A stretch of 46,795 bases of DNA, taken from contig CAIOZA010000053.1 in NCBI GenBank assembly GCA_903862655.1, forward strand, positions 1 to 46,795, read 5' to 3'. Below the pieces are notes generated by a model that was not told where the DNA came from, searched no databases, and worked only from the letters and a program-made list of their open reading frames with translations. Source of the DNA: an uncultured Ignavibacteria bacterium. GTDB lineage: Bacteria; Bacteroidota; Ignavibacteria; Kapaibacteriales; UBA2268. Positions 35,770 to 46,795 of the stretch are shown here, piece by piece. Made by a program: the position numbers and the translations under genes. How positions within the stretch are numbered: position 1 is the stretch's first letter; the number at the start of each line of letters is the position of its first letter.

Positions 35770-37761
35770 TCACATCTTAATAAACTTGGTCACTCTATCC
35801 CCAATTCTCACAAAATACATCCCGGGAACCAAGCCGGATACATCGATTCTAACTCCCTCTCCACTTGTGGAGAGGGTTGGGGTGAGGTCGCAGTTCTGCC
35901 CGAAGACATTATATATCTTAATACTCACACCCCCTGACCCACTCTCAAGAGGGGGATAAGAAATTTCTATAAAATCCGTTACCGGATTGGGAGCAATCTC
36001 CATTTCTGACGATATATTATTTTCTTCAACGCTTATAATCTTCCCGACTACGCTGATCTTTAGAGAATCTGACCATTCGCTTATTGATCCTTTTGTGTCC
36101 TTTGCTTTCACCTTAATAATAAAATCACCTGGTTTGCTCCAAGAATGAGATGCTGTAATTTGAGTGTCTGGTAGATAGAATTCAGACCAAGCGGACACAG
36201 TACTGTCTCCCCAGTCAAAGAAATAGCTGACAGAATCATCATCTAAATCATTTGTTTTAGTGATGTAGTTATAACTTCTATAAATTGAATCTACAATACT
36301 ACCTCCGGGTTTTGAAGGTATTTCCGGTGAATGATTGGGTGGTTTAATTATCCCGACTACATTAACTAGCAAAGTGTCTGACCATTCACTTTCAAGGTCA
36401 TATTTATCTCTGGCTTTTACCCTGACTTGAAAATTTCCGGTTGTATCCCATGAATGAGTAACTGATACTTGTTCACCGGAATCATAAAGTATTGTCCAGT
36501 CTGAATTCTTACCATCTCCCCAGTCAAAAAAATATTTAACTGAATCTTTGTCAGGATCTGTTGTTTTAGTAATATATTCGTAATCGAGATAAATTGAGTC
36601 TTTAATGTTACCCTGTGGCTTTAAAGGTTTATCAGGATGGTTATTTGTAGGTCTCGTAAAATCACGTGTATATTTATATACTGAATCTCCGTCATAAATT
36701 ACATACGCTGTAGTAGCAGATGTTACCTGAACACTATTTGTTAAACCAAACGCTGGGCTACTGTCTGGTAATTTATATAAAATATCTTCCCTCCAGTGTT
36801 TTCCACCATCTTCAGTTACAAGAACCAAACCTAAACTGCTGGTTGCCATTCCAAATTGATTATCAAAAAAAATAATATCATGAACTGTAAAGCTATTAAA
36901 TTTTTTGTCTCTTTGTGTTTCCCAAGTTTTACCACCATCTGTGGTTTTTTGGATTAATTGAGTAGTTTTCGAATAGTCACTTGAAGTTAAAAATCCACCA
37001 CTGATCCAACCAAGAGTATCATTTATAAAATCTAAATAATAGGCATAATTGTGCACAGGTAATGTGTCCCAGGCTTTCTTTTTTAAATCTACTGTTAATA
37101 GGTTTTGCTTAGGAATAGAATCCATAAACCAAATCAAACCCACTAATTTATTCCTATTAATTAAATCCCAATCAACAATGCCAAGTCTATTTTCATCTGG
37201 TAATCCAATTTTGTTCCAAGTTAAACCACCATCAATAGTTTCAATCTGATCGACAACCTTTATAGGCTCAGGATAATTACCAATCAACATAATACCATAT
37301 TTTTCATCGAACATTTTCAATCTGCCTAATTTCTTATTTTTCCCTAAAGAAAATTTATTCCATGTATTACCTTTATCAGTAGTTCTAATTATCAAACCAG
37401 AATCACCGATGGCAATAAACAATTTTTCATTAGGATAAGCGATCTCTTTCAATTTAGGTACAAATTTTTGTGTATTACCTTTAACATAAGCAGAATCCAT
37501 GAAAACATTCTTCCATGTAATGCCACCATCGGTTGTTCTTCTAAAATAGTAACCTCCAGCACCATAGAAATCACACCAAATCATGCAATTTAGTGAATCA
37601 AAGCATTTCATTTTTACGTATTGATTGTCTGTGTAACCATCAGGAATATCGAATCTACGATCAACTACCTGCCAACCGTGCGGTGGTTGGGAAAAAGACA
37701 AATGAAAAGGTATAACGGAAATAGTTAAAATTAGTAGGAGGAGCTTAAGAAATAGTTTCAT
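35770..37761 (-). CDS. T9SS-secreted BNR plus PKD protein with repeat-invaded sorting domain
   Basis: 663 residues. Signal peptide 1-24; then a BNR/Ycf48-like propeller (about 30-360; RRTTDGGITWKN, IRTTDKGNTWNK, QKTTDGGKTWET, LVTEDGGKHW). Two PKD domains follow (about 375-470 and 480-580), each with YFFDWGD, a SHSW or THSW strand and VKAKD or VKARD. The last 75 residues (IAPNPVTDFIEIS to KFIKM) are a T9SS type A sorting domain. In that domain YPPLESGSGG and DLTPTLSTSGEG are translations of palindromic repeat DNA (35929-35957 and 35853-35887) sitting in two loops. No catalytic motif; probably a surface-bound adhesin or matrix protein. Confidence 0.88.
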   Translation of the reverse strand: MKLFLKLLLLILTISVIPFHLSFSQPPHGWQVVDRRFDIPDGYTDNQYVKMKCFDSLNCMIWCDFYGAGGYYFRRTTDGGITWKNVFMDSAYVKGNTQKFVPKLKEIAYPNEKLFIAIGDSGLIIRTTDKGNTWNKFSLGKNKKLGRLKMFDEKYGIMLIGNYPEPIKVVDQIETIDGGLTWNKIGLPDENRLGIVDWDLINRNKLVGLIWFMDSIPKQNLLTVDLKKKAWDTLPVHNYAYYLDFINDTLGWISGGFLTSSDYSKTTQLIQKTTDGGKTWETQRDKKFNSFTVHDIIFFDNQFGMATSSLGLVLVTEDGGKHWREDILYKLPDSSPAFGLTNSVQVTSATTAYVIYDGDSVYKYTRDFTRPTNNHPDKPLKPQGNIKDSIYLDYEYITKTTDPDKDSVKYFFDWGDGKNSDWTILYDSGEQVSVTHSWDTTGNFQVRVKARDKYDLESEWSDTLLVNVVGIIKPPNHSPEIPSKPGGSIVDSIYRSYNYITKTNDLDDDSVSYFFDWGDSTVSAWSEFYLPDTQITASHSWSKPGDFIIKVKAKDTKGSISEWSDSLKISVVGKIISVEENNISSEMEIAPNPVTDFIEISYPPLESGSGGVSIKIYNVFGQNCDLTPTLSTSGEGVRIDVSGLVPGMYFVRIGDRVTKFIKM
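35853..35887 (-). repeat. Palindromic repeat inside coding sequence (A, site 2)
   Basis: CCCTCTCCA (35855-35863) pairs with TGGAGAGGG (35868-35876) around CTTG, then TTGGGGTGAGG. On the minus strand it encodes DLTPTLSTSGEG within the sorting domain. Intergenic relatives are at 10110-10140, 10344-10378 and 10391-10418. Confidence 0.75.
35929..35957 (-). repeat. Repeat-like insert inside coding sequence (A, site 1)
   Basis: An imperfect C-rich/G-rich palindrome (ACCCCCTGACCC, then ACTCTCAAGAGGGGGAT) encodes YPPLESGSGG between the first strand of the sorting domain and the KIYNVFGQ strand. It occupies the same place as the 28-bp elements at 38501-38528 and 45911-45938 but belongs to a different family. 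Confidence 0.55.
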
Positions 37762-38260: not shown

Positions 38261-38345
38261 TGACTTCACCTTAATTTATTTACTATTGTTTTATAAGTCG
38301 TAGAAAGACTTTTTATATTTCATTATATGATCTTTAATCAGCAAT

Positions 38346-39572
38346 TTAAAGCTTCACAAATTTCCCAACTATATCCCCAATTCTCACAAAATACATACCC
38401 GGAGCAAATCCGGAAATGTCTACACGTAGGGGCAATTCATGAATTGCCCCTATAGACAATACAGTTTGACCATAAACATTATATATCCTCACATCGCTTT
38501 GTAAGGGCGAACGGCCGTTAGCCCCTACGAATACATCAATAAAATCAGATGCAGGATTTGGAGAAATAAATTGCGCATTCTCGGAGGCTAGGTTTTCTCC
38601 TGCATCATTCGAAAAATCGATTTCACAGTTTATTAATTTTGCTCGGCATAATGTGCCACCATAAAGAATATAGATGTACTTTTCGTTATGAGCTATTGCT
38701 AGACCTGACTTGCCATGTTCAATTGCCAAACCGGTATTCGCTGAAAGCCACTTTTTGCCTGAATCTCTGGATTGGTAAACTCCAATCTGATTGATAGAAA
38801 TACCAAATAAGTTGTTACCGCAAGATATTATCTGTCGGAAATTTGATAAACCCGCATAATTTGGGGTTTCGCTCCAACTTGTTCCATTGTCAGAACTTGA
38901 TATTACCGAATTTCCCTGATACTCAAAACCCATAATTAAATCATTAATCGATAGATAGCTGGAATATTTATTATTCGTGGGAGCATAAACTGCATCCCAA
39001 GATTGACCTTTGTCAATTGACCGGTAAATCTCTCTGCCAATAAATTTTGCGGAAAAAAGAGAATTTCCCTTTACAAGAAGCGGACCATAGCCATCATTGC
39101 TCCATCCGGTTGCTATTACACGCTGGAAGGTTTCACCATAGTCTGTTGTTCTGTAGAGGGAGCAGCAACCGCCAATTATTCCGGTTTCACCAGTGAACAT
39201 AATGGTGCCTGATACTGAATGGGATGTATCTGTAAACACTTTCCAAGTTTGACCATAATCATGTGAAACGAGATAATCCTCATAAATTGTCGCAAAGATA
39301 TTGGAGTCTTTAATACCGCATAGGTATGTATCTCGATTCTGACTGGGAGTATATTGAGTCAATACCCAGTTATCACCGGCATCTTTTGAAACATATACTT
39401 TATTACCAAAAGTAGAAATTGCAATATTATTTCCGTCAATTACCAGATTAGTGTAATATTCACTTTTCGCTGCGGGTAAACCATTTTTCTCGGCTAATTC
39501 AACCCACTGCGCAAACGTTCCAATAGAGAATAACCCAAGGATCAGAATATGGAGACAAATATATTTAATCAT
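38346..39572 (-). CDS. T9SS-secreted BNR propeller with repeat-invaded sorting domain
   Basis: 408 residues from ATG at 39570-39572, which begins the signal peptide directly (MIKYICLHILILGLFSIG); a TTG 15 bp upstream is a weaker alternative. Residues about 20-330 are Ycf48/BNR propeller repeats (KVYVSKDAGDNWV, LVSHDYGQTWKV, EIYRSIDKGQSWD, GVYQSRDSGKKWL). The last 73 residues (ISPNPASDFIDVF to KFVKL) are a T9SS sorting domain. Two loops are encoded by palindromic DNA: VGANGRSPLQ (from 38501-38528) and GAIHELPL (from the perfect palindrome 38427-38452). A degenerate second sorting domain lies just upstream on the same strand. Confidence 0.87.
   Translation of the reverse strand: MIKYICLHILILGLFSIGTFAQWVELAEKNGLPAAKSEYYTNLVIDGNNIAISTFGNKVYVSKDAGDNWVLTQYTPSQNRDTYLCGIKDSNIFATIYEDYLVSHDYGQTWKVFTDTSHSVSGTIMFTGETGIIGGCCSLYRTTDYGETFQRVIATGWSNDGYGPLLVKGNSLFSAKFIGREIYRSIDKGQSWDAVYAPTNNKYSSYLSINDLIMGFEYQGNSVISSSDNGTSWSETPNYAGLSNFRQIISCGNNLFGISINQIGVYQSRDSGKKWLSANTGLAIEHGKSGLAIAHNEKYIYILYGGTLCRAKLINCEIDFSNDAGENLASENAQFISPNPASDFIDVFVGANGRSPLQSDVRIYNVYGQTVLSIGAIHELPLRVDISGFAPGMYFVRIGDIVGKFVKL
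38427..38452. repeat. Perfect 26-bp palindrome inside coding sequence (B, site 2)
   Basis: TAGGGGCAATTCA (38427-38439) is followed directly by its exact reverse complement (38440-38452). On the minus strand it is translated as IGAIHELPL in the loop between the GQ turn and the RVDISG strand. The DNA matches a palindrome family widespread in intergenic regions of other bacteria (from memory). Confidence 0.85.
38501..38528. repeat. 28-bp imperfect palindrome inside coding sequence (B, site 1)
   Basis: GTAAGGGCGAACGGCCGTTA then GCCCCTAC is palindromic apart from two symmetric mismatch pairs, with ACGGCCGT at its centre. It encodes GANGRSPLQ. The element at 45911-45938 matches it at 24 of 28 positions and occupies the same loop in another gene. 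Confidence 0.8.
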
Positions 39573-39663
39573 AATCAATCTCTTCAAATTTTTTTACAAA
39601 TTTACTAACTTTATTGCCAATACTCACAAAATACATACGGGAACAAAGGGAGAATAACTCGAC
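39565..39663 (-). pseudogene. Orphan, degenerate T9SS sorting-domain fragment
   Basis: The minus-strand frame ending at TAA (39565-39567) encodes VELFSLCSRMYFV then SIGNKVSKFVK, which aligns with VDISGFAPGMYFV then RIGDIVGKFVK of the neighbouring T9SS protein, including MYFVxIGxxVxKFVK. At DNA level CTCACAAAATACAT (39623-39636) is identical to the same place in the other three cassettes. There is no passenger domain, signal peptide or conserved NP motif, and an in-frame TGA lies about 30 bp upstream of the homologous part. It overlaps the 5' end of the next gene. Either the tail of a deleted gene or a copied cassette. Confidence 0.55.
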
Positions 39664-39910: not shown

Positions 39911-42040
39911 TTAGGTTGCAGCCAGATTTGCCATGATTTCTATGTCAGTATCTGGCGGTAATTCCGTATAACTTATGACGCTGATCATCGGGAACTGAGT
40001 GTGAATCATTCTGTAAAAATATGGTCTGACCTGAGCTGAGCATATAATTATCGGCAGATATCCTCTTAGAGTTATATCGTCGATCTGGTCAGAGAGTGCA
40101 TTGTGAACATCCCGGATCATATCCGGGGGTAAACCAAGTGTTGGTGAACTGCTAGCCTGATTACTTGTCTGGAGTGCAGTAGTCATTTTATCTTCTATCT
40201 CGGTGTCCAATGCAATCACGTGTACTGTTCCTTTGTCATCCTGATAAAGCTTCTTGATTGTTTCGGACATATTGTGTCGGACAAATTCTGTCAGGACATC
40301 TATATTCTTAGTAATAGGATAGTATTCAAGAAGAGATTCGAGAATTATTGGTAAATCTCTGATAGGAACTCCTTCCCTGAGAAGATTTTGGATAACCTTT
40401 TGAGTTGTTGCTGATGGAAGATTATCGGGAGTCATTTCATCAACTAATGCAGGATAATCAGTCTTTAGATTTTCTACCAAATGCTTAATATCCTGACGAG
40501 TGATAAGCTTATCTGAGTTTCTTCTTAACAGTTCAGTAAGATGTGTAGTCAGTACAGTTGCTGATTCAACAACTGTATATCCCATGATTTCGGCATTCTC
40601 TCTGTCGCCAAATCCAATCCATGTAGCCGGCAATCCGAAGACTGGCTCAGTCACCTTAATGCCGCTCAAGTCACCTTCGGCAGTACCGGGATTCATAGCT
40701 AGCAGCATAGTCGGGTGCAATTGATTTCTTGCGGCTTCATTTCCGCGGATCCGGATAATATATTCCTCTGGTTCAAGCTGAAGATTATCTCTAACCCTGA
40801 CAGGTGGAAGGATGATACCCAGTTCCGTAGCCAACTGTCTTCTAACATTAGATATACGCTTGAATACGTCCCCACCCTGAGCCTCGTCCACTAGGGCAAT
40901 GAGAGAATATCCTAGTTCAATTTCGACAGGATCAACCCGCAACAATTCCTCAACTGGTGCTTCTTCAGGTTTCTCGGTAGTTTTATCTGTATCTATCATT
41001 TCCTCTCTTAGCTTTTCGACTGCTTCTTTCTTGTTGGCCTTTGACCTGAAATAAGCAATTAGCCCAGCAACAAATGAAATCAAAAGGAAAGGAAATGTGG
41101 GAAGTCCAGGCATAACGCCAAGTATAAACATTGTCCCGGATACCATAGCCATAGGTTTAGTTTTTCCGGTAAATTGCTTACCTAGTTCAGAGTCAAGTTT
41201 GTCAGCTGAGGCTGAACGTGTAACAACAAAACCGGCGGCAACAGAAATTAGCAAACCGGGGATCTGAGAAACAAGACCGTCACCGATAGAAAGAACAGTA
41301 AATGTGGATAGTGCTGTGGATACATCCATATCGAGCTGGGCTATACCAATCGCGAATCCACCTAGAATATTTATGGCAGTGATTAAAAGGCCTGCTATCG
41401 CATCCCCTTTAATAAATTTTGACGCACCATCCATTGAGCCATAAAAGTCGGATTCTTTGGTTAATTCCTCTCGTCTTTTGCGTGCAGTCTGTTCGTCGAT
41501 GTAACCGGCATTCAAATCAGCATCGATACTCATCTGCTTTCCAGGCAGAGCATCAAGAGTAAATCTTGCCGTTACTTCTGCTATTCTAGTCGAACCTTTA
41601 ACAACGACAATGAAATTGATAATTAACAGGATTATAAATAAAATCAAACCCACTACATAATTACCCCGGATAACAAACGTTCCAAACGACTGAATAACCT
41701 GTCCTGCACTGCCTTCACTAAGAATGAGACGGGTTGACGCAACATTAAGCCCCAGCCTGAATAATGTAACAATAAGCAGGACTGTCGGGAATGAAGAAAA
41801 TTCCACAGGGCTTCGGATATATAGGGCAATAAGCACAATTAAAACCGACATTGAAATACTGATAGTCAAAAGAATATCCAGTAGAAATTGTGGCAAAGGA
41901 ATTATAATAAGCGCCAATATTATTAGCACTCCGAATGAAAGTAATATATCTGGATTATGCTTAACATAAGGCAGGATACTTCTTCCAAAGTTCGATATAG
42001 TATTTCCGCCTGTAAGGGCCAGTGGTTCAGTCTTTGCCAT
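39911..42040 (-). CDS. flhA: Flagellar biosynthesis protein FlhA
   Basis: 709 residues, normal length. Eight transmembrane helices (about 28-335) carry the FHIPEP-family signature region VTLFRLGLNVASTRLIL (about 90-106) and the loop with ARFTLDALPGKQMSIDADLNAGYI plus RREELTKESDFYGSMDGASKFIKGDAIAG. A charged linker with GPEEAP-like residues (about 335-355) precedes the large cytoplasmic domain that forms the export ring and docks chaperone-substrate complexes. It starts 10 bp after the flhB stop and is the last gene of the export operon. Confidence 0.97.
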   Translation of the reverse strand: MAKTEPLALTGGNTISNFGRSILPYVKHNPDILLSFGVLIILALIIIPLPQFLLDILLTISISMSVLIVLIALYIRSPVEFSSFPTVLLIVTLFRLGLNVASTRLILSEGSAGQVIQSFGTFVIRGNYVVGLILFIILLIINFIVVVKGSTRIAEVTARFTLDALPGKQMSIDADLNAGYIDEQTARKRREELTKESDFYGSMDGASKFIKGDAIAGLLITAINILGGFAIGIAQLDMDVSTALSTFTVLSIGDGLVSQIPGLLISVAAGFVVTRSASADKLDSELGKQFTGKTKPMAMVSGTMFILGVMPGLPTFPFLLISFVAGLIAYFRSKANKKEAVEKLREEMIDTDKTTEKPEEAPVEELLRVDPVEIELGYSLIALVDEAQGGDVFKRISNVRRQLATELGIILPPVRVRDNLQLEPEEYIIRIRGNEAARNQLHPTMLLAMNPGTAEGDLSGIKVTEPVFGLPATWIGFGDRENAEIMGYTVVESATVLTTHLTELLRRNSDKLITRQDIKHLVENLKTDYPALVDEMTPDNLPSATTQKVIQNLLREGVPIRDLPIILESLLEYYPITKNIDVLTEFVRHNMSETIKKLYQDDKGTVHVIALDTEIEDKMTTALQTSNQASSSPTLGLPPDMIRDVHNALSDQIDDITLRGYLPIIICSAQVRPYFYRMIHTQFPMISVISYTELPPDTDIEIMANLAAT

Positions 42041-42050
42041 TTATTTTCCG

Positions 42051-43154
42051 TTAATTGTTATTAATATTGCTCAAAACGTCTTTCTTTTTAAGACGAAATA
42101 CGTAAGCCAGGATCTGTGCCACAGCTTTGAACAAATTCTCAGGTATAGCTTCATTCACATCTACAGAATAGTAAAGTGCCCTCGCTAGTGGCGGCTCTTC
42201 TACTATAGGAATATCAAATTCTTTTGCAAGTTCTCTTATTCTGAAAGCTAGAAAATCTACCCCCTTTGCTATTACTATTGGAGCATTGTCCTGTTTGGGT
42301 TGATACTTAAGTGCAATAGCATAATGAGTCGGGTTAGTTATCACAACGTCTGCCTGAGACATTTTGGATAACATTATTTTTCTTAGTCTTCCTCGCATGA
42401 TAGATCGAATTTTTGATTTTATCATCGGATTACCTTCTGATTGCTTTCCTTCTTCTTTCACTTCCTGCTTTGTCATTTTCATGTCACTTTTGAATTTGTA
42501 TTTCTGGTAGAAATAATCAGCAGCAGCAATTAGTATGTAAAGAGCACCGACCTTCAATATAAGTTCAAGACTTACTTTTCCGATAAAAGCACCAATTTCA
42601 TTGATTGGACGCTCAATCAGAAGAATAGCCTCGTCTGAATATTTCATAAGAACAGTGTAAACAACAAATCCAAGAATAAATAGCTTCATCAAACTTTTTA
42701 GAAGTTCTACCATTGATCTGCTGGAGAACAACATTCTTTTCAATCCTGAAAATGGATTGAATATCATTGCCAGATTCAATCCTTCAGTGAATTTCTTTGT
42801 AGCGAAATGCAGTCCTACCTGAGAAATCTCTGCTATTAGAATAATTACGCTAATACCCATTAGAACCGGAAGAATCAACTTGCTTATGTAGATTATGAAT
42901 CCAAGAGTATAAGCCTGAATACTTAGGTCAGTAAAAACAAATTCATTTGAATGGATCAATATCCTCTGCAGCAATTCTTTGATGGATTCAATTGTACCTG
43001 AACCTGTAAAATATACAAGCAGGGTACCGAAAAGTAGTGCCGCAGATGTTGTTACGTCAATGCTTTTCGATACCTGTCCTTTGTCCCGCGATTCTGAGAG
43101 TTTTTTACCACTCGCGGGTTCGGTTTTCTCCTGACCTTCTTTATTTTCAGCCAT
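42051..43154 (-). CDS. flhB: Flagellar biosynthesis protein FlhB
   Basis: 367 residues. Hydrophilic N-terminus (EKTEPASGKKLSESRDKGQVSKS), four transmembrane helices (about 35-55, 85-110, 150-172, 195-215), a basic linker and the autocleavage motif NPTH (274-277) in ADVVITNPTHYAIAL. Cleavage between N and P switches the export gate from rod/hook to filament substrates (family knowledge). The C-terminal domain ends with a non-conserved tail (KKKDVLSNINNN). It starts 3 bp after fliR and ends 10 bp before flhA. Confidence 0.97.
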   Translation of the reverse strand: MAENKEGQEKTEPASGKKLSESRDKGQVSKSIDVTTSAALLFGTLLVYFTGSGTIESIKELLQRILIHSNEFVFTDLSIQAYTLGFIIYISKLILPVLMGISVIILIAEISQVGLHFATKKFTEGLNLAMIFNPFSGLKRMLFSSRSMVELLKSLMKLFILGFVVYTVLMKYSDEAILLIERPINEIGAFIGKVSLELILKVGALYILIAAADYFYQKYKFKSDMKMTKQEVKEEGKQSEGNPMIKSKIRSIMRGRLRKIMLSKMSQADVVITNPTHYAIALKYQPKQDNAPIVIAKGVDFLAFRIRELAKEFDIPIVEEPPLARALYYSVDVNEAIPENLFKAVAQILAYVFRLKKKDVLSNINNN

Positions 43155-43157
43155 TTG

Positions 43158-43952
43158 TTATATCCGTCCAGGATTTAATGTTAAAATTATTCTCATTAGA
43201 TCTGTCTCCATATTTTGAAGAAAGTACCTAATAGAAAGTACTGTAAGCGGCACTGTTATGAATAAAATCAATAAGCCAACAATGATCTTTACCTGAAAGC
43301 TAAGCACAAACACATTGGTCTGTGGAGCTACTCTCGCCAGTAAAGCCAGAGCTAAATTCACTAAAAACAATGATATCAATACAGGTGCTGATATTTTGAG
43401 TCCAACAATCATTACGCTTCCTGCAATTACAGTCAGAGATTTCATTGTCGCAGCCGTAAATTGTCCCTGAGTCAACGGAACAATTTTAAAGCTGGCATAT
43501 AAAGCTTCAATCAGATAATGATGCCCATTAATTATGAGAAAGACCATAAGTGCTGACATTTCAAAAAATTCACCAACAAGACTTGGAGTGTCATCTCCAC
43601 TGAACAGCATACCTGTCTGGAATCCCATGTCAAAATCAATCAATCCTCCTGCTAACCGTGCGCCAAAGAACACAATATTCATAGAAAATCCGATTGCCAG
43701 ACCAACAAAGAACTCTTTCAAAATGAGAAATGCAAGATTCCACACCTGAACGTCTATTTCGCCAGGCGTAAGAGAATAACTGCTCGTCATAACCATTGCA
43801 AGGATCATAATTGTAAAGAACTTTATGCTATTCGGAAATGCTGTACTCCTGAAAAATGGTGCACTTAGAATTGCACCCGATATTCTTACGGAAATCAGAA
43901 TGGCAATTATCAATTTACCCATCAATATATCCATATCGACTGCATTAATCAC
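43158..43952 (-). CDS. fliR: Flagellar biosynthetic protein FliR
   Basis: 264 residues, hydrophobic throughout with about six membrane segments. The family pattern is clear: RISGAILSAPFFRSTAFPNSIKFFTIMILAM (about 23-53) and FFVGLAIGFSMNIVFFGARLAGGLIDFDMGF (about 86-116). It forms the export gate core with FliP and FliQ. Its ATG overlaps the fliQ stop by 4 bp (ATGA arrangement), indicating translational coupling. Confidence 0.96.
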   Translation of the reverse strand: MINAVDMDILMGKLIIAILISVRISGAILSAPFFRSTAFPNSIKFFTIMILAMVMTSSYSLTPGEIDVQVWNLAFLILKEFFVGLAIGFSMNIVFFGARLAGGLIDFDMGFQTGMLFSGDDTPSLVGEFFEMSALMVFLIINGHHYLIEALYASFKIVPLTQGQFTAATMKSLTVIAGSVMIVGLKISAPVLISLFLVNLALALLARVAPQTNVFVLSFQVKIIVGLLILFITVPLTVLSIRYFLQNMETDLMRIILTLNPGRI

Positions 43953-44215
43953 TTCAGTGTCTCTATCATTTTAATCATTTCAATCGTATAAGTTTTTAAA
44001 GCATTCATCATAAATGGCAGTAGAAGAACCGTTGTGACAAATACTGCAATTAATTTCGGAACAAATGTTAATGTTTGTTCCGAGATAGACGTGGCTGCCT
44101 GAAAGATCGAAATTATCAATCCAACTACCAGAGAGACTAGCAAAAGAGGACCAACAACTATCATAACATTGTAGAATGCTTCCCTCACTATCGATACCAC
44201 CATTTGTTCTGTCAT
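43949..44215 (-). CDS. fliQ: Flagellar biosynthetic protein FliQ
   Basis: 88 residues with two transmembrane helices. The family start (MTEQMVVSIVREAFYNVMIVVGPLLLVSLVVGLIISIFQAATSISEQTLTFVPKL, given here as description of residues 1-55) is intact, including the conserved QAATSISEQTLTFVPK segment. Four copies surround the FliP5-FliR1 core in the gate. It starts 21 bp after fliP and overlaps fliR by 4 bp. Confidence 0.96.
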   Translation of the reverse strand: MTEQMVVSIVREAFYNVMIVVGPLLLVSLVVGLIISIFQAATSISEQTLTFVPKLIAVFVTTVLLLPFMMNALKTYTIEMIKMIETLK

Positions 44216-44236
44216 TTATCTTATTCCATATTAAAT

Positions 44237-45010
44237 TTATTTAAGAATACCCTTCATCAGTGATTCTATTATCAGATACCAGCCATCAACCAGAATGAAA
44301 AGCAGAATTTTGATCGGCAGAGAAATAAGCTGAGGAGGCAGAAGGAACATACCTAAAGCCATTAGAATACTGGCTATAACCATATCGAGAACGATAAATG
44401 GGATGAACAACAGAAATCCTATCTGAAATGCCATTCGCAGCTCACTTATTGAATATGCCGGTATAACTGTCCAGGTAGAAACTTCCGTAATGTCTTTTGG
44501 CTTGTCCTTCCCGCTTAACTTGATGAAGAGTTTTAGATCCTGTTCACGAGTATGCTTGAGCATGAAGGCTCTGAATGGAGTTATCATATTGTCCACAGCC
44601 TGGGACTGTGAGATTTCATCCTTCATGTAGGGTTGCAGCCCCTCTCTGTTAGCCTGATCCATCACAGGTTGCATAACAAAGAAAGTGAGGAATAAAGCTA
44701 AACCAATAAGCATTTGATTAGGCGGTTGCGTTTGAGTGCCGAGAGCCATCCTGAGAAAGTGAAAAACAACGATAATTCTTGTGAAGCATGTCATCATTAT
44801 CAGCAATGATGGAGCCAATGTGAGTACCGTCATAATCAACAGTATCTGGATATTCATTGAGAAGTCATTCTTCTTGTCTGAATTATCGACAGAGATTGAA
44901 AGACGCGGTAAAGACGGCACAGTCTGCTGTGCTTTTGCTGTTTCGGCAAGGGCAATTGACAACAACAGACCTAAGACTACCGATATGATAATTGATTTAT
45001 ATCTGAGCAT
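44237..45010 (-). CDS. fliP: Flagellar biosynthetic protein FliP
   Basis: 257 residues. A cleavable signal peptide (about 1-27, ending AKAQQ) and four helices. Signatures include TVLTLAPSLLIMMTCFTRIIVVFHFLR (about 60-86), ALGTQTQPPNQMLIGLALFLTFFVM (about 89-113), a periplasmic loop with FRAFMLKHTREQDL, and the C-terminal IPFIVLDMVIASILMALGM, LPIKILLFILVDGW. First gene of the visible operon; fliO is not recognisable upstream. Confidence 0.97.
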   Translation of the reverse strand: MLRYKSIIISVVLGLLLSIALAETAKAQQTVPSLPRLSISVDNSDKKNDFSMNIQILLIMTVLTLAPSLLIMMTCFTRIIVVFHFLRMALGTQTQPPNQMLIGLALFLTFFVMQPVMDQANREGLQPYMKDEISQSQAVDNMITPFRAFMLKHTREQDLKLFIKLSGKDKPKDITEVSTWTVIPAYSISELRMAFQIGFLLFIPFIVLDMVIASILMALGMFLLPPQLISLPIKILLFILVDGWYLIIESLMKGILK

Positions 45011-45749: not shown

Positions 45750-46795
45750 TTACAACTTCACAAACTTCCCAACTCTGTCCCCTATCCTCACAAAATACAT
45801 CCCCGGAGCCAAACCGGATACATCGATTCGTATTGTAGGGGCGGGTTCTAAACCCGCCCAAGTTGATGACACATTCTGCCCATAGACATTATATATCCTC
45901 ACATCCCTTTGTAAAGGCGGACGGCCGTTCTCCCCTACCGATATTTCAATGAAATCAGATGTGGGATTTGGATAAATAAAAGTTGGGGTGGGATCTTCGT
46001 CCGATTTAACACCAGTTGTTTCCCAGCGGGCATGAAGCATTGTTATGTCATCATCTCTACCAGCACATATCATCGTATTATCTGGTGAAATGGATAGTCC
46101 AGTTAATGCTGCAAACCCATAAATATAACTAATACTCTCATTCTTAAAATTCCATATCCTCAAACTATCATAACCTGTAACCAGGCATTTAGAATCTCTT
46201 GAAAAGCAAACAAAACCCGCGACTTTTTGCCCTCCCAAACTCAAAGTATGTATAAGTGAGTCATTAGTTAAATCCCATATACGCACATTATAACCTGTAC
46301 CACCAGCAAGGTATTTTCCATCTGGACTACAATTTAGATATAGCCCATCATTGTTTTGGTTTTTATTATAAACTATTTTTTTTACTATTGATAAGCTGTC
46401 AACGCTCCTGAATTCAATATAAAAAAGTTTTTGAAAAGAACCCTCTCCTATAAATAAATTGTCATTTGTAGGTAATGTCAATAAAGCTATATCGTAATCG
46501 AGTTGTTTCCTATTAATAATCTGAAGATTTTGCAAATCAATTTTATAAAGCATATACTTTTCTTCTTTTGTATTTTGTTTTATCTGGTAAAATACTACGA
46601 AAAGATACCTTCCGTTATTAGATAGACACATAGATTTAGAGTTAGGGTAGTAAACAAATGGAGACCATCCGCTAATATCAAAATCACCGAGATAGATAGT
46701 ATCAGACTGCCTTACCAGTTTAAAGCTGTCCAGCGAGTATATTTTTAATATTCCGTCATCGAAAAACATATAATTTAAACTATCTGAAGAGAGTA
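45750..46795 (-). CDS. T9SS-secreted WD40-like protein, partial, with repeat-invaded sorting domain
   Basis: The frame runs off the right edge: an ATG at 46767-46769 exists, but the codons upstream stay open to the end (LSSDSLNY before MFFDDG) and continue a WD-like repeat, and no signal peptide is seen, so the N-terminus lies outside. About 348 residues are visible. WD40-like repeats include MCLSNNGRYLFVV, NCSPDGKYLAGGTGYNVRIWDL, CFSRDSKCLVTGYDSLRIWNF and SISPDNTMICAG. The last 75 residues (IYPNPTSDFIEIS to KFVKL) are a T9SS sorting domain in which VGENGRPPLQ (45911-45938) and AGLEPAPT (45835-45861) are translated palindromes. Confidence 0.85.
   Translation of the reverse strand, partial: LSSDSLNYMFFDDGILKIYSLDSFKLVRQSDTIYLGDFDISGWSPFVYYPNSKSMCLSNNGRYLFVVFYQIKQNTKEEKYMLYKIDLQNLQIINRKQLDYDIALLTLPTNDNLFIGEGSFQKLFYIEFRSVDSLSIVKKIVYNKNQNNDGLYLNCSPDGKYLAGGTGYNVRIWDLTNDSLIHTLSLGGQKVAGFVCFSRDSKCLVTGYDSLRIWNFKNESISYIYGFAALTGLSISPDNTMICAGRDDDITMLHARWETTGVKSDEDPTPTFIYPNPTSDFIEISVGENGRPPLQRDVRIYNVYGQNVSSTWAGLEPAPTIRIDVSGLAPGMYFVRIGDRVGKFVKL
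45835..45861. repeat. Palindromic repeat inside coding sequence (C, site 2)
   Basis: GGGCGGGTT (45839-45847) pairs perfectly with AACCCGCCC (45851-45859) around CTA, with GTAGG on its left. On the minus strand it is translated as WAGLEPAPT in the loop before the RIDVSG strand. Confidence 0.8.
45911..45938. repeat. 28-bp imperfect palindrome inside coding sequence (C, site 1)
   Basis: Same family as 38501-38528 (24 of 28 identical, same ACGGCCGT centre and CCCCTAC end). It encodes GENGRPPLQ in the same loop of the sorting domain. Confidence 0.8.

Follow-up and report, generated by a model that had tools for sequence, protein, structure and literature searches.

What are two short palindromes doing in the translated end of a single gene? 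The question is raised by a gene in a 46,795-nucleotide stretch of DNA (contig CAIOZA010000053.1) from an uncultured Ignavibacteria bacterium. The whole of this stretch is referred to here as the window. The original prediction, made from the sequence alone, was that two palindromes, here called A and B, are read in frame in the C-terminal sorting domain of the encoded protein, each fitting a loop of the domain. We followed up this prediction by sequence, structural and comparative analysis. The analysis placed both palindromes among the REPs, which are usually treated as extragenic.

The host gene and its sorting domain

The host gene is located at 38346-39587 on the minus strand. Its 413-residue frame encodes a protein with BNR/Sortilin-like repeats that ends in a T9SS type-A sorting domain (CTD). 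The C-terminus scored 29.8 bits against TIGR04183 (cut-off 23), and the protein scored 34 bits against PF18962 (cut-off 27), both of which identify a sorting domain. PF15902 and PF02012 were also matched. The CTD extends from a PNP motif to the last codon (38349-38561, minus strand), as supported by the profile matches, a structure model and a Foldseek search. The genome also carries T9SS machinery, as indicated by SprA (TIGR04189), which scored 881.5 bits (cut-off 200); the same profile matched none of 14 control genomes.

The CTD model is of moderate confidence, with a mean pLDDT of 75 and a pTM of 0.67. Foldseek ranked the mirolase CTD at the top of the solved structures, and the T9SS translocon substrates 8glk and 8gl6 were found at ranks 6 and 8; no solved structure scored below E = 0.001. 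Judged by sequence family, C-terminal position and predicted fold, the domain is a type-A sorting domain. Consistent with the original prediction, the model places both inserts in turns between strands. The B insert is predicted to lie between strands 16-19 and 31-36, in a low-confidence stretch. The A insert is predicted to span the turn that joins strands 42-48 and 54-57, together with the ends of both.

An Rfam search of the window returned one tRNA and nothing else. A flagellar export cluster with FlhA, FlhB, FliR and FliP is located at 39911-45010 on the minus strand, beside the CTD genes, and the genome combines flagellar export genes with T9SS.

Two palindromes of one repeat class

Palindrome A is located at 38426-38453 (minus strand) in loop 2 of the CTD and reads IGAIHELPL(R). 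When recomputed from the sequence, its inner 26 bp, TAGGGGCAATTCATGAATTGCCCCTA at 38427-38452, were found to be an exact inverted repeat with no loop, as had been described. The outermost pair of the 28-bp unit is broken by one substitution. This is the sole perfect palindrome of at least 26 bp in the window, where 0.0017 are expected at 36.8% GC. Its translation, IGAIHELPLR, lies between GQTVLS and VDISG, again as described. Palindrome B, GTAAGGGCGAACGGCCGTTAGCCCCTAC at 38501-38528 (minus strand), is located in loop 1 within a slot of 30 nt (38499-38528). It encodes VGANGRSPL(Q) as claimed, but to call it a palindrome without qualification was an overstatement, as it is imperfect and only 12 of its 14 pairs match. 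Both units are in phase 0 of the host frame.

The two palindromes had been considered too improbable to arise by chance. The existence of copies is consistent with this view, but the palindromy of B alone is not improbable: 0.32 such 28-mers are expected in the window, and another as palindromic as B is found at 44056-44083. The weight of B therefore comes from its copies and not from its palindromy alone.

These copies give a 28-bp consensus of GTAGGGGCAATTCATGAATTGCCCCTAC for unit A and a consensus of GTAGGGGCGAACGGCCGTTCGCCC[C/T]TAC for unit B. The 8-bp outer arms of the two are the same save for the C/T position, and the 12-bp cores differ. The two ends of each consensus are GT[AG]G and C[TC]AC, the mark of a double-foot REP. 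The window copies each have one substituted foot, A ending in CTAT on the plus strand and B beginning with GTAA. A is open in one of the three frames and B in two of the three. On these sequence features, A and B are double-foot REP sequences, a class tied to the TnpA-REP (RAYT) transposases of subclass 2.4. The original prediction had missed that A and B are members of one 28-bp repeat class, that other types occupy the same loops, and that the class is tied to RAYT genes.

The mRNA had also been expected to carry two strong hairpins close to the stop codon, and folding in silico bears this out. A 250-nt segment that includes the stop codon (38330-38579, minus strand) has a predicted energy of -73.4 kcal/mol (z = -3.0; 0 of 200 shuffles as stable), and both hairpins are present in its minimum-energy and centroid structures. 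The first unit (A) ends 77 nt before the stop codon and the second (B) 152 nt before it.

Repeat inserts in the sorting domains of the genome

Other copies in the genome (4.07 Mb) had been predicted, and we found 9 copies of A and 24 of B with up to three mismatches; a reversed-pattern control for B gave 0. All 9 copies of A are in CTDs, as are 23 of the 24 copies of B, the exception being located at C84:27548. In the CTDs, DFIEIS or a variant form precedes B, which is on the coding strand and has a single orientation wherever its asymmetry can be read. A wider scan for double-foot sites gave 33 sites (control 1). CTD sequence accounts for 32 of them, including 3 in two CTD remnants with no long upstream frame, and the exception is at C122:32551. 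With 32 of 33 sites in CTDs, the repeats are dispersed between genes and not between contexts.

The CTD remnant L397 (G000:C19:89601-89816; site C19:89678) has on its 5' side two REPs, one of E type followed by one of H type, with a short spacer between them, and this region resembles intergenic REP dimers at C95, C114 and C122. That the remnant starts at an apparent intergenic REP dimer hints at recombination at a REP.

The window contains three CTDs with repeat inserts, on three different host proteins. In the CTD of the gene at 35770-37761, a type F hairpin repeat occupies loop 1 (35926-35958) and a type C hairpin repeat loop 2 (35852-35886). In the third CTD (gene 45750-46769), a B variant with a 30-nt slot is located in loop 1 (45909-45938) and the type E repeat GGGCGGGTTTAGAACCCGCCCCTACA in loop 2 (45834-45859). 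All four are on the minus strand. Types were labelled from peptide patterns, which distinguish four in loop 1 (B, F, G and H) and six in loop 2 (A, A', C, D, E and I). The hairpin repeats of types C, D, F and I do not have GTAG feet at both ends; they may be of another kind, which the double-foot account does not cover. Of the 18 exact copies of type E/G, CTDs contain 12, and one of the 6 found elsewhere is beside a RAYT gene. Type G occurs in loop 1 in both orientations (C15:68125 versus C24:76936, C139:88635 and C147:31167).

We scored 150 of 321 CTD candidates. A subfamily of 52 CTDs, which is not a random set (39 of the 150 were taken through a motif filter and 13 were added for carrying B), has at least one insert in 42 members, in 14 type combinations, and neither insert in 10. 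The structure alignment included 51 of the 52. B sites outside this set are L038, which has no CTD, and L028, a CTD remnant.

Divergence of the repeats and of their carrier domains

Among 25 B-bearing CTDs, the divergence at third codon positions within B is 0.077. The corresponding value is 0.37 for the 30 nt that precede B, 0.49 for the 33 nt that follow the slot and 0.43 for the 3' module. B is equally diverged at codon positions 1, 2 and 3 (0.075, 0.078 and 0.077). The borders are sharp: per codon, divergence drops from 0.47 to 0.08 at the left border and rises from 0.0 to 0.35 at the right one. To the left of B, the codon nearest to it is preceded by five that are fairly conserved as well (0.08 to 0.41). 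In 8 A-bearing CTDs, divergence is 0.13 inside A, compared to third-position values of 0.38 and 0.60 beside it. The low divergence in the repeats relative to their flanks indicates that they are younger than the carrier domains, or homogenised apart from them.

A scaffold tree was calculated for 42 CTDs from 141 columns, with the loops left out. On this tree, the loop-1 type requires 10 changes, compared to a mean of 15.8 and a minimum of 13 in 300 shuffles. The loop-2 type requires 19, compared to a shuffled mean of 23.7, with 3 of the 300 shuffles as low. The F-bearing CTDs form one group of 8. These counts, which are weak evidence because the tree has little resolution (4 starred branches out of 39 inner ones), suggest that loop types track the scaffold in part, yet switch often.

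Links to RAYT genes

In G008, a Y1 transposase (PF01797) contains a perfect in-frame copy of B downstream of its HUH motif, MPNHIH. B in the window genome differs from this RAYT copy by one base. We analyzed the loop regions of 44 RAYT loci and three chosen for A, and those fitting the motif pattern gave 23 rows, one of which (L301) repeats another (L213). A strong hairpin, with a score of at least 11 and exceeding every shuffle, is present in 14 of the 22 distinct rows, and 10 of these 14 contain the full 28-bp GTAG...CTAC palindrome; the RAYT query itself contained the B peptide, which favours B-like loops. Exact A is present in three further RAYT genes, all from other phyla (Brocadia, Gracilimonas and a Proteobacteria MAG), which were found through A. 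A, B, E/G, and A' with one base changed all occur in frame in the RAYT-gene loop as well. In G054, where a single type was sought, the type in the RAYT loop is a repeat with 15 copies in the genome, counting the one in the RAYT. RAYTs contain every exact double-foot site of G037 (1 of 1) and of G085 (2 of 2), indicating that the RAYT copy need not come with dispersal.

The genome of the window contains two RAYTs with such a loop, of type E/G and not A or B. A cognate enzyme for A or B was sought among its RAYTs and none was found. The hairpins around its Y1_Tnp genes are of E/G type or other palindromes, with no A or B among them. Short, truncated-looking Y1_Tnp frames are located at G000:C14, C98, C142 and other places (L209-L212, L214, L216-L218). 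They end in a common NHVHLLLQIDTKRPICKTVEIIKS-type stretch, and some have an internal stop.

Copies in other phyla and in relatives

The exact 26-mer of A is found in at least 114 stretches of named genomes, the matches listed including Nostoc, Nitrospirae, Omnitrophica, Brocadia, Zixibacteria, Spirochaetota and Anaerolineaceae. A flank consensus was sought in 107 A copies with distinct flanks and none was found, no column exceeding 0.08 bits. Across phyla, A is multicopy and dispersed, with unrelated flanks. To see whether the copies are flanked by target-site duplications, as a MITE with terminal repeats would be, we counted the direct repeats at their borders. Those of 2 bp border 16 of the 107 copies (8.1 expected), those of 1 bp border 8 (26.1 expected) and those of 3 bp or longer border none (1.9 expected).

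A is central in a larger inverted repeat, with at least 5 bp per arm, in 18 of the 107 copies, compared to 0.96 expected. In L113, L118, L120, L149 and L167, A is at the exact centre of inverted repeats that continue for a further 9-12 bp on each side, and these copies look as if they were inserted in the loop of a pre-existing hairpin.

A P-type-ATPase-like frame in a Nitrospiraceae MAG (L146, 5900-6400) contains two in-frame A-type units, one exact and one variant; for A copies of other phyla, 'in frame' denotes at least 110 codons free of stops, a criterion that certainly admits some frames that are not genes. A Zixibacteria contig has an A copy in a PNP-type domain, reading PNPFNSSVTIAIDG-VGAIHELPLR-VEIY and cut by the contig end.

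B is present with up to three mismatches in 7 of 60 relatives. We considered sites in relatives with no more than three broken pairs, of which three regions of G005 and one of G088 yielded none. Of the 17 double-foot sites of G088, CTDs contain 7, a CTD fragment contains 1 and RAYTs contain 2, and the other 7 are elsewhere. In G101, all 3 fetched sites are in CTDs; the genome has 6 sites, and one of the other three is in a RAYT. G104 has 14 sites, 1 of them in a CTD and 1 in a RAYT. None of the 16 G005 rows examined is in a CTD, despite many B copies in that genome. G088, G101 and G104 together have 11 full CTDs with an insert. In 10 of these the insert starts at the same codon as in the window gene, and in L385 it is offset. 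In most of those 10 CTDs, which belong to other genera of the family, the repeat types differ from those of the window gene. Exact A' and the paired variant GTAGGGGTAATTCATGAATTACCCCTAC are both found in CTDs of the window genome and in G104.

CTDs of G028 and G008 have degenerate A-like peptides in loop 2. In G032, which belongs to another genus, CTDs (L418, L424, L428 and L430) contain perfect palindromes or inverted repeats of 28-33 nt in loop 1 without GTAG feet, for example ATCAACCATAGGGTTAACCCTATGGTTGAT. Judging from these sequences, they are another repeat kind in the same loop. Of 395 genomes drawn evenly from the phylum, 6 were matched by a query CTD that contains the A peptide; all 6, the window genome among them, are of this family, and G088, G101 and G104 are not in the rows listed.

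Discussion

The feature is real, recurrent and non-random. Double-foot repeats of types also found in RAYT genes occupy two turns of many CTDs, in frame, and are relatively young compared to the domains around them. The palindromes are probably RAYT-derived double-foot REPs that are tolerated as selfish repeats in two CTD turns and have spread among paralogs. TnpA-REP enzymes of subclass 2.4 would copy, or would have copied, REPs of this class in the form of single-stranded hairpins. The survival of these REPs inside proteins may be due to the open frame 0 and to a length, 28 bp and 2 nt more, that amounts to ten residues in a tolerant turn. Spread to paralogous CTDs, or mutual replacement in them, could proceed through gene conversion of short tracts or through recombination-like exchange at the feet that the units share. 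The loop peptide is most likely a neutral filler in an exposed loop and no part of the sorting signal. Several observations count against this explanation: no cognate enzyme for A or B was found among the RAYTs of this genome, G005 has no CTD copies among the rows examined, and the loop type partly follows the scaffold. We also considered random transposition followed by selection, which fits poorly with the near absence of A and B copies outside CTDs here. Because of this near absence, active transposition is not visible in the genome.

A single ancestral CTD might instead have gained the palindromes once, after which the whole cassette was duplicated with the palindromes as immobile passengers. 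B is always located at the same codon and in one orientation where this is readable, loop types fit the scaffold better than shuffled labels (10 versus 15.8 changes for loop 1), and the 8 F-bearing CTDs group together, all as expected from duplication. The conserved codons left of B and the loop types partly following the scaffold indicate that cassette duplication contributes. As a complete account it is unlikely. Third-position divergence is 0.077 in B versus 0.37-0.49 beside it, and the loop types switch at least 10 times (loop 1) and at least 19 times (loop 2) on the tree. In addition, type G is present in two orientations, and other types occupy the same codons in other genera. An origin in place, by hairpin-templated mutation of quasi-palindromic CTD sequence, is hardly tenable. 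The A' loop partly resembles the non-palindromic loop of C19:133592, but A and A' are identical to repeats in other genomes and B is one base away from the G008 RAYT copy. Mutation in place would not repeatedly give one sequence, and the identical copies elsewhere therefore argue against it.

Selection could also have kept the palindromes for what they do. A regulatory role of the RNA or DNA hairpins, close to where the mRNAs of secreted proteins end, would agree with the stable transcript hairpins (z = -3.0), with variants that keep the pairing (A pairs 5 and 8) and with the equal conservation of codon positions within B. However, paired variants such as GTAGGGGTAATTCATGAATTACCCCTAC are also repeats in G104 and need not arise in place, 10 of the 52 subfamily CTDs have neither insert, and the same units occur elsewhere with unrelated flanks. 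We regard this role as improbable. Selection of the loop peptides themselves, on secretion, modification or surface diversity for instance, would account for inserts that keep the frame and recur at the same turns in several genera, and for the several alternative peptides per loop. Codon positions 1 and 2 show no excess conservation inside A or B, however, and the C36 and C95 paralogs manage with short loops, to judge from their intact frames. Peptide selection thus appears very improbable.

An extension of the RAYT-derived REP explanation is conceivable, and we advance it tentatively and with some doubt. CTDs and RAYT genes may be dedicated coding niches, in which REPs evolved for harmless translation. 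In CTDs, the REPs might act as exchange sites that shuffle loop peptides, perhaps whole sorting domains, between dozens of secreted proteins. If REPs do exchange CTD segments, they would offer a route for shuffling secretion tags.

A REP population located almost wholly within one translated domain family allows age, spread and tolerance to be measured against codon positions and dozens of paralogs, and makes REP movement a testable question at fixed sites. It also carries a warning for annotation, as the peptides GAIHELPL, GANGRSPL and AGLEPAPT mark repeats and not homology.

Comparison with known systems

REPs, including in-frame REPs, are already known, and the element class is therefore a known one. 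In the sections of Quentin et al. (2018; PMC6006769) cited here, subclass 2.4 tnpAREP genes contain double-foot REPs in frame, after the HUH motif, and these REPs are reported in Cyanobacteria, Bacteroidetes and scattered phyla. The repeats described here are similar to them in the GT[AG]G and C[TC]AC palindrome ends, in the in-frame RAYT copies and in the spread over phyla. Unlike those REPs, they have as their main intragenic home two fixed turns of the T9SS sorting domain, of which the cited sections make no mention. GTAG and CGTC REPs were described within many reading frames, where they code for extra residues (Di Nocera et al., 2013; PMC3733652). They resemble the present repeats as short GTAG-tagged palindromes that add residues to reading frames; in the cited parts of that work, however, they lie in scattered genes, DNA repair is stressed and no sorting domain is named.

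Rickettsia palindromic elements (RPEs) are likewise palindromic repeats that are tolerated in frame in many unrelated proteins, and the portion of the source cited here gives their length as 105-146 bp (PMC2229807). Those of R. conorii have CGTC ends, according to the cited part of PMC3733652. We considered whether the present repeats are RPEs and rejected this on size, as the RPE unit given in the cited portion (105-146 bp; PMC2229807) compares to 28 bp with GTAG ends here.

A search of titles and abstracts in open-licence PMC text found no literature joining REPs with T9SS. Compared to the T9SS type-A sorting domain (TIGR04183, PF18962), which it resembles in sequence family, C-terminal position and predicted fold, the domain studied here differs in that two of its turns hold repeat-encoded decapeptides. 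Within the reach of that literature search, the T9SS sorting domain appears to be new as a second recurrent protein-coding home of REPs, at two fixed turns and in several genera.
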